Shown here piece by piece: positions 24,933 through 28,747 of a DNA stretch of 56,881 nucleotides. The notes under the pieces are model-generated. The model did not search any database. It was not told where the DNA came from and saw only the letters and a list, made by a program, of their open reading frames with translations. Location of the stretch: NCBI GenBank assembly GCA_937934655.1, contig CALGZB010000170.1, positions 1-56,881 on the forward strand, read 5' to 3'. The DNA is from an uncultured Acidimicrobiales bacterium (GTDB lineage Bacteria > Actinomycetota > Acidimicrobiia > Acidimicrobiales > SHLQ01). Numbering within the stretch: position 1 is the stretch's first letter; every line of letters begins with the position of its first letter. The position numbers and the translations under genes were made by a program.

Positions 24933-27700
24933 GAACACCCGCTGGTTGAACCGCAATCCGAGCACACGTAACAAGATCCGGCCCGCTGCATATGGATCCC
25001 GCACTGCATGCAGAGCGGCGAATCGAGCAACTGGTCGGATTTCATCTCGGCCTCGAGCTGCGATGCTGACGGCACCGACTTGGGGTCGGGGGCGATGTCT
25101 TGACCTTGCACGTTCTGGGTGACGCTCTCGACGACACCGGGAAGCGTCGGCTGGGTGCGTTCACCGCTGGTAAGAATATTCAGACCTTCGCGCTCTTCGA
25201 GCGATAGGTACTCGACGGCAAGGCGACGGAAGAGGTAGTCGGTGATACTCGAGGCGATGCGAAGATCGGGATCGTCGGTCATACCGGCTGGTTCGAACCG
25301 CATCCCCACGAATGCTTCAACAAAGGCTCGCATCGGTACGCCGTACTGAAGTCCATGACTGACCGCTATCGCGAAGGCATCCATGATGCCGGCCAAGGTT
25401 GAACCCTGCTTAGACACCCGACAGAACATTTCGCCCGGACGGCCATCTTCGTACTCGCCAACCGTGACGAATCCCTTACAGTCAGCGACCCGAAACTCGA
25501 AGGTTCGTGAGGATCGTGACCGGGGCAGTTTGCGCCGAATTGGTTCAGCCGGGATTGGGATGGCCTCGAAGAGCGTGGCCGCACTATCTGGAGTGTCGGC
25601 GGAGGAGTCTTCACCCTTGCCCGAGCTAAGCGGCTGGCCGACCTTGCAGTTGTCACGGTAGATGGCGACGGCTTTGAGGCCGAGTTTCCATGACTCGATG
25701 TAAAGCTGTTCGACCTCGTCGATGGTTGCGGTCTCGGGCATGTTGACGGTCTTGCTAATTGCCCCAGAGATGAACGGCTGAACCGCCGCCATCATCTTCA
25801 CGTGGCCAAGGTGATGAATTGGATCGTCGCCCATCGAGCAGGAGAACACCGGGAGGTGTTCGGGCTTGAGATGCGGGGCGCCAACGGCCGAATAGTTCTC
25901 GTTGATGTAGTCGATGATCTCGGCCGACTCGTCGCTGGAGTAGCCGAGCGTCTCGAGTGCCCACGGAATGGTTTGGTTCACGATGGACATCGTTCCGCCG
26001 CCAACCAACTTCTTGGTTTTCACCAGCCCAAGATCGGGCTCGATGCCCGTGGTATCGCAGTCCATCAGCAAACCAATGGTCCCTGTTGGGGCAAGAACCG
26101 AAGCTTGGGAGTTGCGCACACCCGCAATTTCGGCGAGCTCGCAAGCTTCGTCCCATGCTCGTTGACCGGCGCTGAGCAAACCGTGCTCGACCGCTGTTTC
26201 GTCGATAGCCGATACCGCCGAGCGGTGCATGGAGAGCACTCGCAACATGTGTTCGCGGTTCTCGTGAAACCCGGCGAACGGGCCGACTCGTTCCGCAAGC
26301 TTTGCCGAGGTCAGGTAGGCCTGACCGGTAAGCAGCGCCGTAATCGCAGCAGCCATCGAGCGACCTTCGTCGCTGTCGTATGCCAAGCCCTTGGCCATCA
26401 GCAGTGCGCCGAGGTTGGCGTATCCAATGCCCAACTGGCGGAAAGCTCGGGCGGTCTCACCGATGCCCTCGGTGGGGTAATCGGCATTGCCGACGAGAAT
26501 TTCTTGGGCCGCAAATACCACTTCGACCGATGCTTGGAACGCCTCGGTCTGGAAGTCGCCGGTTTCGGCATCGAGGAAGGTCAGCAGGTTGAGGCTTGCA
26601 AGGTTGCAGGCACTGTTGTCGAGGTGCACGTATTCCGAGCACGGGTTACTGGCGTTGATTCGGCCGGTGTTGGCGGCGGTGTGCCAACGGTTGATCGTGG
26701 TATCGAATTGAAGGCCCGGATCGGCGCATCGCCATGCGGCATCAGAGATCTCACGCATGAGGTCGCGTGCCTGGATGGTTTCGAGTGGTTCGCCGGTTAG
26801 GACGGCATTGAGGTTCCACGGCGCGTCGTTGATGACCGCTTCCATGAAATCATCGGTAACCCGAACGGAGTTGTTGGCGTTTTGGTATTGCACCGAAACC
26901 ATGTCGGAGCCATCGACACCCATGTCGAAGCCAGCATCGGCGAGCGCCCGGATCTTTCGTTCTTCATGGGCCTTGGTCTGAACAAACTCAACGATGTCTG
27001 GGTGGTCGGCGTTCAGCACAACCATCTTGGCGGCACGGCGGGTCTTGCCGCCGCTCTTAATCGTGCCCGCTGATGCATCTGCGCCGCGCATAAAGCTCAC
27101 GGGGCCGCTAGCGGTTCCACCGCCAGCGAGGTTCTCTTTGGCACTGCGAATCTTGCTGAGATTTACTCCGGCCCCAGACCCGCCTTTGAAGATCCGGCCT
27201 TCCTCGGCATACCAGTTCAGGATGGAATCCATCGTGTCGTCGACCGAAAGAATGAAACAGGCAGACGCCTGCTGAGGCACGCCCTTCACCCCGATGTTGA
27301 ACCAAACCGGTGAGTTGAAGGCCGCCTTCTGGTTGATGATGAGGTACTTGAGCTCATCGGAGAACAGGTCGGCCTCGTGGGCATCGACGAAGTAGCCATC
27401 GCGTTCGCCCCACGTGCGGATGGTGTCGACCACCCGATCGGCCACCTGCTTGAGTGAGGTTTCGCGCTCGGAGGTGCCGAGCTCCCCGCGGAAGTACTTC
27501 TGGGCAAGAATATTGGTGGCGTTGACCGACCAAGTTGAAGGCACTTCGACGCCGAGTTGCTCGAAGGCGACCGAACCGTCGCGGTAGTCGGTGATTCGGG
27601 CATCGCGCCGCTCCCAGGTGACGGTGTCGTAGGGGTGAACTCCGTCAACCGTATGAACTCGGCGCAAACCAAGTCCGGCTCGCTCGGGGGCGAGAGCCAT
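24929..27700 (-). CDS. nrdJ: Vitamin B12-dependent (class II) ribonucleotide reductase
   Basis: Reduces ribonucleotides to deoxyribonucleotides with adenosylcobalamin and needs no oxygen or partner subunit. The 923-residue protein contains AAFNSPVWFNIG, QASACFILSVDDTMDSI, GSGAGVNLSKIRS and the catalytic NPCSEYVHLDNSACNLASLNL block. APTGTIGLLMDCDTTGIEPD follows. The Cys-rich tail CGIHMQRAGSCYVCSDCGSTSGC resembles the redox or zinc tail of long NrdJ proteins. ATG at 27700 has GGAGAAG upstream. A longer frame to 27733 is unlikely. It is followed by overlapping tdk and preceded by the structured leader at 27780-27893. No nrdR gene is in the window. Confidence 0.95.
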   Translation of the reverse strand: MALAPERAGLGLRRVHTVDGVHPYDTVTWERRDARITDYRDGSVAFEQLGVEVPSTWSVNATNILAQKYFRGELGTSERETSLKQVADRVVDTIRTWGERDGYFVDAHEADLFSDELKYLIINQKAAFNSPVWFNIGVKGVPQQASACFILSVDDTMDSILNWYAEEGRIFKGGSGAGVNLSKIRSAKENLAGGGTASGPVSFMRGADASAGTIKSGGKTRRAAKMVVLNADHPDIVEFVQTKAHEERKIRALADAGFDMGVDGSDMVSVQYQNANNSVRVTDDFMEAVINDAPWNLNAVLTGEPLETIQARDLMREISDAAWRCADPGLQFDTTINRWHTAANTGRINASNPCSEYVHLDNSACNLASLNLLTFLDAETGDFQTEAFQASVEVVFAAQEILVGNADYPTEGIGETARAFRQLGIGYANLGALLMAKGLAYDSDEGRSMAAAITALLTGQAYLTSAKLAERVGPFAGFHENREHMLRVLSMHRSAVSAIDETAVEHGLLSAGQRAWDEACELAEIAGVRNSQASVLAPTGTIGLLMDCDTTGIEPDLGLVKTKKLVGGGTMSIVNQTIPWALETLGYSSDESAEIIDYINENYSAVGAPHLKPEHLPVFSCSMGDDPIHHLGHVKMMAAVQPFISGAISKTVNMPETATIDEVEQLYIESWKLGLKAVAIYRDNCKVGQPLSSGKGEDSSADTPDSAATLFEAIPIPAEPIRRKLPRSRSSRTFEFRVADCKGFVTVGEYEDGRPGEMFCRVSKQGSTLAGIMDAFAIAVSHGLQYGVPMRAFVEAFVGMRFEPAGMTDDPDLRIASSITDYLFRRLAVEYLSLEEREGLNILTSGERTQPTLPGVVESVTQNVQGQDIAPDPKSVPSASQLEAEMKSDQLLDSPLCMQCGIHMQRAGSCYVCSDCGSTSGCS

Positions 27701-27779
27701 AGAATCTTCTCCAATCGACGCCCGGCTGTCCAAGTAGACCAGCCGAACAAAATGTTACATGTGTGCAGTACTAGGGACG

Positions 27780-27893
27780 CAGCCACAACAGAGCAGTAGG
27801 TACGATGAACCCGACTTCCGCCCGGTTCATCCAAGAGGTGTTCGACCCACCGAGAGTGAACGCCAGCTGACATTCCACTGCCTGTTGTGGCTG
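27780..27893 (-). ncRNA. Structured 5' leader of nrdJ, candidate cis-regulatory RNA
   Basis: Read on the minus strand, CAGCCACAACAG pairs perfectly with CTGTTGTGGCTG (12 bp). After a bulged U, GCAGT pairs with ACTGC. After another bulged U, GG pairs with CC, giving a 19-bp closing helix. Inside is a hairpin with 8-bp arms GATGAACC/GGTTCATC (27831-27824, 27811-27804, 12-nt loop) and a smaller GGTG/CACC hairpin. An alternative helix could pair the upstream GTTCA with the same TGAAC. The predicted promoter puts the transcript start within a few nt of the helix. About 80 nt separate the element from the nrdJ ATG. A predicted 'nrdJ RNA motif' has, as I recall, been reported upstream of such genes; identity could not be tested. 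Confidence 0.65.
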
Positions 27894-27900
27894 CTCGACC

Positions 27901-27928
27901 AACCTAAAGAACCTTCCCTGTGGAGCAA
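27901..27928 (-). promoter_or_regulatory. Predicted nrdJ promoter
   Basis: On the minus strand TTGCTC (27928-27923) and TAGGTT (27906-27901) are spaced 16 bp. The transcript would start near 27894-27896, immediately at the base of the leader helix. One CTGTG motif lies in the -35/-10 spacer. Confidence 0.55.
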
Positions 27929-27990
27929 AAGCGCGAACCCTGTGTAAATCGTCCTGAAGCTGTGCATTTCGCGCAGAACCTGTGGATTAG
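27916..27990. promoter_or_regulatory. Four CTGTG motifs at 20-22-bp spacing
   Basis: CTGTG begins at 27918, 27940, 27960 and 27980, in the contexts CCCTGTGGAG, CCCTGTGTAA, AGCTGTGCAT and ACCTGTGGATTA. The near two-turn spacing places all on one DNA face. The last, TGTGGATTA, differs at one base from the DnaA-box complement TGTGGATAA. The protein that binds is unknown. Confidence 0.45.
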
Positions 27991-27993
27991 AGT
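27988..27993 (+). promoter_or_regulatory. -10 element of the RibD-type gene
   Basis: TAGAGT, then 7 nt, then GTG at 28001. This is leaderless spacing and decides the start in favour of 28001. Confidence 0.5.
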
Positions 27994-28000
27994 GGGACAA

Positions 28001-28747
28001 GTGCGCCAAATCCTTCCAACACTGCTCGAGGCGGTCGATATTCCCGCCTTGTATCGGGCAGACGAGCGGCCGCCACCCTCGGACCGGCCGTGGATTTTGG
28101 CAAATATGGTCACAAGCGTCGATGGGGCGACGGCCGTCGATGGATTGTCGGGAAAACTTGGTGGGGATGGTGACAAAGCCGTGTTCCGAGCCGTTCGAGC
28201 ACTGGCAGACGCCATAGTGGTTGGCGCCGGCACCGCAGTTGCGGAGAACTACGGCCCTCCGGTCTTGTCGCCCGACCTGATCGCAACAAGGGTTGCGAGT
28301 GGCCAAACCCCGCTGCCCAGGATTGTCGTGGTCTCGAACACCCTGCGGTCGTTCTCGAACTTCGGAACAAGACTGTTCACCACCGACGGGTTTCGCCCAA
28401 CGGTCATCACCTCGGGCGCTGCCCCACCCGAACAGGTTGAGGCTATGCGCTCCGTTGCCGACGTTGAGGTCATCGGCTCCGCCGAGGTGGATCTCTCTGC
28501 CATGTTTGCCAAGCTCCGTGCCGACGGGATCATGCGGGCACTGGTGGAGGGCGGCCCGACGTTGAACGGCCACCTGCTGGCCGCTGACCTGCTGGATGAG
28601 GTGGTTCTGACCTTTGCGCCGGCGTTGGCGAGCGGCAGATCGAACCGGTTTGCCATCAACGAATCGGCAACGCTGCACCAACTTCGATTGGTTCGCGTTC
28701 TCGAAGCCGATAGTCATTTGTTCTTCCGGTACGTGCGGGATCGCTAG
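28001..28747 (+). CDS. RibD C-terminal-type (pyrimidine) reductase
   Basis: A 248-residue dihydrofolate-reductase-fold protein of the family that reduces the riboflavin-pathway aminouracil intermediate. Visible blocks are RPWILANMVTSVDGATAVDG, ADAIVVGAGTAVAENYGP, the NADPH-site segments PRIVVVSNT and ALVEGGPTLNGHLLAADLLDEVVLT. There is no deaminase domain, so it is a stand-alone reductase; paralogues act outside riboflavin synthesis, and no rib genes are near. The GTG at 28001 is preferred over a frame extending to 27920, which would include the promoter and CTGTG motifs. Its stop overlaps the stop of the convergent LysM gene. Confidence 0.78.
   Translation: MRQILPTLLEAVDIPALYRADERPPPSDRPWILANMVTSVDGATAVDGLSGKLGGDGDKAVFRAVRALADAIVVGAGTAVAENYGPPVLSPDLIATRVASGQTPLPRIVVVSNTLRSFSNFGTRLFTTDGFRPTVITSGAAPPEQVEAMRSVADVEVIGSAEVDLSAMFAKLRADGIMRALVEGGPTLNGHLLAADLLDEVVLTFAPALASGRSNRFAINESATLHQLRLVRVLEADSHLFFRYVRDR

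Follow-up and report, generated by a model that had tools for sequence, protein, structure and literature searches.

Ribonucleotide reductase sets the supply of DNA precursors, and the regulators described for its genes include leader RNAs. The 2′-deoxyguanosine riboswitch of Mesoplasma florum is a three-way junction leader. Like the RNA described below, it is associated with a ribonucleotide reductase gene, on which it acts through termination linked to its P1 helix (PMC12268651). In P. acnes, the cobalamin riboswitch RF00174—a multi-branched aptamer in a leader RNA controlling ribonucleotide reductase genes (nrdAB/nrdDG), again as might apply here—is carried on the nrdAB transcript, and NrdR boxes overlap just one of the nrdRJ promoters (PMC3848588). 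In Streptomyces, the nrdJ RNA RF03034 (also listed in S. lividans; PMC8079986) is, like ours, a conserved structured RNA just upstream of nrdJ, with its function unknown.

The locus compared here with these systems lies in a stretch of 56,881 nucleotides from an uncultured Acidimicrobiales bacterium (the whole stretch being "the window"), where a structured RNA precedes the gene for a class II, i.e., B12-dependent, ribonucleotide reductase (Table 1). Folded as a 126-nt piece, the nrdJ-sense (minus) strand at 27894–27779 reaches −67.6 kcal/mol, and none of 200 shuffled sequences was equally stable (z = −6.27), which bears out the structured leader RNA first proposed in a sequence-only reading. 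The closing helix of that proposal is also found, though with different dimensions: P1 has 20 bp (13 + 7, one bulged U) rather than 19 bp (12 + 5 + 2, two U bulges), and it encloses a three-way junction in which the 8-bp hairpin (P3, 8 bp) and the smaller one (P2, 4 + 4 bp) both appear as described. The proposed TTGCTC-16-TAGGTT promoter is present at 27928–27901, and a start ~7 nt downstream of its −10 element would coincide with the foot of P1. The distance of ~80 nt to the nrdJ AUG, once given for the transcript 5′ end at the helix, holds for the helix end, 78 nt before the ATG at 27700; the RNA 5′ end lies about 195 nt before it. A TGAAC with two possible partners, taken as a hint of a switch, does have its alternative pairing in the window but is not conserved, as TGAAC is absent from P3 of genomes G001–G003. 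Judged by sequence alone, the position, strand, and predicted promoter of the RNA fit an nrdJ 5′ leader.

Table 1. Features of the nrdJ leader region in the window (positions 1 to 56,881).
Feature	Position	Strand	Evidence
Whole structured RNA	27779..27894	-	116-nt match of R3 covariance model, 84.5 bits, E 7.5e-16
P1 5′ strand, 20 nt (13 + 7 bp)	27875..27894	-	Fold and compensatory changes
Junction J1/2 and P2 foot, AATGTCAGCTGGC; wider consensus AATGGTGGYTGRC	27862..27874	-	Conserved columns of alignment A6
P2 hairpin GTTCACTCTCGGTGGGTCGAAC	27840..27861	-	Near-invariant within genus; distant members changed on one or both sides of pairs
Junction J2/3, departing in window genus from wider consensus CTCCTTGG	27832..27839	-	Alignment A6
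P3 hairpin, 8-bp base, variable top	27804..27831	-	Two-sided change at 5/8 pairs in genus, 8/8 in wide alignment
Junction J3/1, GTAC leading into conserved ACCT	27800..27803	-	Alignment A6
P1 3′ strand, one bulged U at 27792	27779..27799	-	Fold
Spacer from RNA to nrdJ, 78 nt, GGAG Shine-Dalgarno; without NrdR box, TTGACA promoter, or U-tract	27701..27778	-	
nrdJ, class II (B12-dependent) ribonucleotide reductase, 923 aa	24929..27700	-	NF005122 1400.7 bits (cut-off 859), Pfam PF08471 and PF02867
Predicted promoter TTGCTC-16-TAGGTT	27901..27928	-	Sequence; conserved boxes in relatives
Four tandem CACAG elements, spacing 20–22 bp, DnaA-box-like (TTATCCACA)	27917..27989: 27989–27979, 27969–27959, 27949–27939, 27927–27917	-	

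A lack of covariation in homologous leaders had been named beforehand as the observation that would count against such an RNA, and covariation was found in all three alignments. In a DNA search of 40 relatives, the leader had no match except in the other three members of the genus. Aligned with MAFFT and no use of structure (A2), these four leaders differ on both sides of 13 of the 36 pairs, with 98.6% of cells paired vs. 87.3% in shuffles and a covariation score of 0.491 vs. 0.236 shuffled and ≤0.141 for slid partners. Specifically, P1 reads GCAGCCACAACAG/CTGTTGTGGCTGC in one form and GCGGCCGCAGAG/CTCTGCGGCCGC in another, and P3 is altered nearly throughout. A covariance model built from the four genus leaders alone (R1) was iterated to A5/R2 and then A6/R3; changes on both sides occur at 26 of 37 pairs in the nine-sequence alignment and at 33 of 37 in A6 (n = 35), counts that are inflated because a model already holding the structure guided these larger alignments, a circularity from which the four-sequence MAFFT alignment is free. 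Across A6, 92.9% of cells are paired, the covariation score is 0.600 (0.230 shuffled, ≤0.102 slid), and RNAalifold draws 33 pairs, 30 of them with two-sided change. The strongest mutual-information pairs in A6 are the drawn helices themselves, and beyond a possible extension at the P2 foot no tertiary or pseudoknot pair stood out by this measure.

The functional strand follows from the same alignment: leaving aside one nearly invariant G·U pair, G-U cells number 170 and A-C cells 14, and an excess of that kind makes the nrdJ-sense strand the functional RNA. P1 is a near-perfect inverted repeat and might for that reason be read as a DNA element (an operator or a mobile-element end) with no RNA role, but the 170 to 14 imbalance, the branched fold with its conserved junction, and the single copy per genome leave this reading with next to no probability.

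Conserved bases cluster at the junction. The A6 consensus has CGG-A(N)UGGUGGYUGRCGUC across J1/2 and the P2 foot, ACGACUCCUUGGGG in J2/3, and GACCUG at J3/1, with a CUCGGUGGG-like stretch at the P2 top; P1 closes with a G·U pair in 34 of 35 members, plus a G-C pair, and the window genus has drifted from the wider consensus in J1/2 and J2/3. Strong conservation at the junction, together with the nearly invariant G·U pair, could mark the site of a bound protein—NrdJ itself or another regulator—and association with one gene would fit autogenous control of this kind. The many conserved unpaired junction bases, however, suit a ligand pocket equally, and we consider a protein-bound leader quite unlikely.

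The RNA was seen only with nrdJ. In 397 genomes of the order, R1 gave two matches outside the genus, in G008 (E 9e-5; its copy, L142, 87 nt before nrdJ) and in G870 (E 3e-4), and among nrdJ loci collected by protein similarity it gave further copies, including some in other families; these E-values, like all from models built here, are rough, and the genomes are mostly metagenome assemblies. Of 297 genomes of the order screened with R3, 55 (in 29 of 171 genera) have a match, always a single one. Of these 55 matches, 54 share the strand of nrdJ and precede the gene by 39–433 nt; the one in G042 (E 0.005), 1.9 kb away, is probably due to chance. Before no other gene was the RNA seen among the R3 matches in these 297 genomes, and within the window the leader is the only strong match, with nothing else convincing. 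Among 150 genomes drawn from the phylum, no genome outside the order has an R3 match. As a wider tracer, the core word ACTCTCGGTGGGTCRRAC was discarded: in 395 genomes of the class and IMG/VR, its only hits outside the genome of the window were four matches with one mismatch in genomes and an exact one inside a protein gene of a phage contig, none with a leader context.

Two architectures connect the RNA to its gene. In 18 RNA-only members (families f1, which includes the window, f13, f35, and f52) 66–109 nt separate the RNA end from the start codon, and this interval contains neither an NrdR-like box nor, save for one loose match, a TTGACA promoter; by distance, members of f57 and f20 join this type, the f20 member G155 at about 172 nt. 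In the remaining, distal-type members the RNA ends 134–432 nt before the start, and the interval nearly always holds a TTGACA-type promoter and mostly NrdR-like boxes, in which respect these members resemble NrdR-box control of nrd promoters, exercised on the same gene. Because this further promoter sits between RNA and gene, part of the distal-type nrdJ mRNA would lack the RNA.

Whether a genome has a second reductase goes with its architecture. Of 10 sampled RNA-only genomes, 8 have a class I NrdA (TIGR02506 over its cut-off), vs. 0 of 10 distal-type genomes; the two exceptions are a contig-end fragment in G030 and G110, which has none. Counting extra reductase matches gives 14 of 15 RNA-only vs. 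3 of 24 distal-type genomes (p = 6e-7, with related genomes not independent), and by family, each of the six RNA-only families includes at least one genome with a second reductase; of the nine others, two are mixed and seven have none. The genome of the window itself encodes a class I NrdA (L256, G000:C110:13652-15355; TIGR02506 662.8 bits), so that NrdJ is not its sole reductase.

The promoter ahead of the RNA is similar in both architectures, i.e., CACAG boxes and a −10-like box just before P1. A −10-like TAGGTT/TACCGT and an adjoining CCACAGG box precede the RNA in most of 45 members, and CACAG boxes stand ahead of nearly all, most members other than the window having one or two at the same place. 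Their resemblance to DnaA boxes suggests that the CACAG elements may bind DnaA; E. coli nrdA is DnaA-regulated (PMC11317965), which makes replication-linked control of nrdJ plausible. On the opposite strand, the listed GTG start of a divergent RibD_C pyrimidine reductase ORF (27920–28747, +) overlaps the nrdJ promoter, and its true start is probably further in.

An RNA with its own predicted promoter and with ends closed by a long helix might also be a stand-alone small RNA that stays beside nrdJ and acts in trans, e.g., via an unpaired anti-Shine-Dalgarno-like CUCCUUGG; the CU-rich J2/3 of most members and the promoter downstream of the RNA at distal-type nrdJ would agree with this. Yet adjacency to nrdJ on the same strand in 54 of 55 whole-genome matches is unexpected for a trans-acting RNA, nearly all members are without a terminator directly after P1, and the CUCCUU stretch is lost in the window genus. 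We therefore regard a trans-acting RNA as fairly unlikely.

One RNA-only member, L095, has a strong intrinsic terminator (GC-rich hairpin and U-tract, at about 1123–1196, just after the RNA) between P1 and nrdJ, the single case of a U-tract terminator among the 18, and no general expression platform was found among RNA-only members. In three f35 members (L233, L234, and L235), J2/3 and the P3 foot share 11–13 nt of complementarity with the nrdJ Shine-Dalgarno, a length equaled in 6–11 of 200 shuffles, which offers a lineage-specific lead for possible translation control. Extended to the RNA in general, pairing of J2/3 (ACUCCUUGAGG) with the Shine-Dalgarno is a very unlikely account: in the window genus and most other RNA-only members the complementarity is no better than shuffled, and J2/3 is conserved even where the RNA lies 200–430 nt upstream. 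Sequestration by J2/3 was accordingly rejected as a general rule. A leader peptide was rejected as well, the ATG at the J1/2 head being present in only 19 of 35 members.

We favor, at a probability of roughly 0.6, a cis-acting nrdJ 5′ leader whose junction most likely binds a small molecule in the fashion of a riboswitch and whose P1 stability gates transcription or translation into nrdJ. One riboswitch trait, a conserved aptamer-like fold with covariation, is present in the leader; the transcript start, cis action, ligand, and switching step we infer as follows. RNA polymerase would start at the foot of P1 from the upstream promoter, and the nascent RNA would fold into the P1/P2/P3 three-way junction with its conserved bases and nearly invariant G·U/G-C closing of P1. 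The junction would then bind a small molecule—a deoxynucleotide, nucleotide, or cobalamin, for example—and P1 stability would decide whether transcription or translation proceeds into nrdJ, the hairpin and U-tract of L095 appearing to resemble transcription-attenuating riboswitches. That nrdJ is the sole associated gene does not name the ligand.

The two architectures suggest a concrete hypothesis on the purpose of this proposed switch. In genomes whose sole reductase is NrdJ, the NrdR-controlled promoter would yield an mRNA free of the RNA. In those that also have a class I enzyme, nrdJ seems reliant on the RNA-bearing transcript, and a signal on whether the cell should make the B12-dependent enzyme would fit. 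It is possible, and we propose it only tentatively, that the leader is a new riboswitch class for ribonucleotide reductase, sensing a deoxynucleotide or the B12 cofactor, by which two-reductase organisms time the B12-dependent enzyme and which NrdJ-only organisms bypass through the NrdR-controlled promoter. The leader is in any case a candidate RNA switch for the supply of DNA building blocks, probably controlling nrdJ. It is a conserved RNA found with nrdJ only, differs clearly from the nrdJ and cobalamin RNAs already listed, and comes with a set of about 50 genomes and precise compensatory mutations.

Set against described RNAs, the leader represents a structured RNA family absent from Rfam 15, in which gathering and permissive thresholds returned only chance matches for the window leader; a literature search, mostly outside subscription journals, gave no description of this RNA. 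The sequence-only reading was right to suspect that an nrdJ RNA motif already exists (RF03034), but the leader is not an example of it: sequence and fold differ, and neither model matches the other's RNA. RF03034 comprises 80 nt in two simple hairpins with a CAGACAG linker and no closing helix, where the present RNA has a closing helix and a three-way junction; its model (cut-off 40.3 bits) has no match in the window or in 198 genomes of the order, and R3 has none in Streptomyces nrdJ leaders. A divergent form of RF03034, which shares the gene, or of RF00174, which by eye is loosely similar in the order of its short conserved words, is scarcely credible, since both families gave no match at E up to 10 on 501, 301, and 261 bases (RF00174 and relatives on short pieces of three members), R3 misses the Streptomyces leaders, and the models do detect their own RNAs—RF00174 elsewhere in the order (positive control L252, 41 bits) and RF03034 above cut-off in 8 other genomes of the phylum. 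Weak, sub-threshold cobalamin-riboswitch matches occur in two genus members, at G000:C286:22299-22376 (L253, 26.2 bits) and G003:C62:9107-9267 (L254, 24.6 bits).

NrdR boxes are DNA-level repressor sites, and none was found in the window leader. The cobalamin riboswitch of P. acnes precedes B12-independent enzymes, whereas the leader described here precedes the B12-dependent one and has no covariance-model match to RF00174; by analogy, the P. acnes nrd arrangement may still serve as a useful parallel. For the purine/2′-deoxyguanosine riboswitches a relation is not indicated, as the leader has no covariance-model match to any Rfam family, and the 2′-deoxyguanosine riboswitch is its nearest working analogy rather than a relative.
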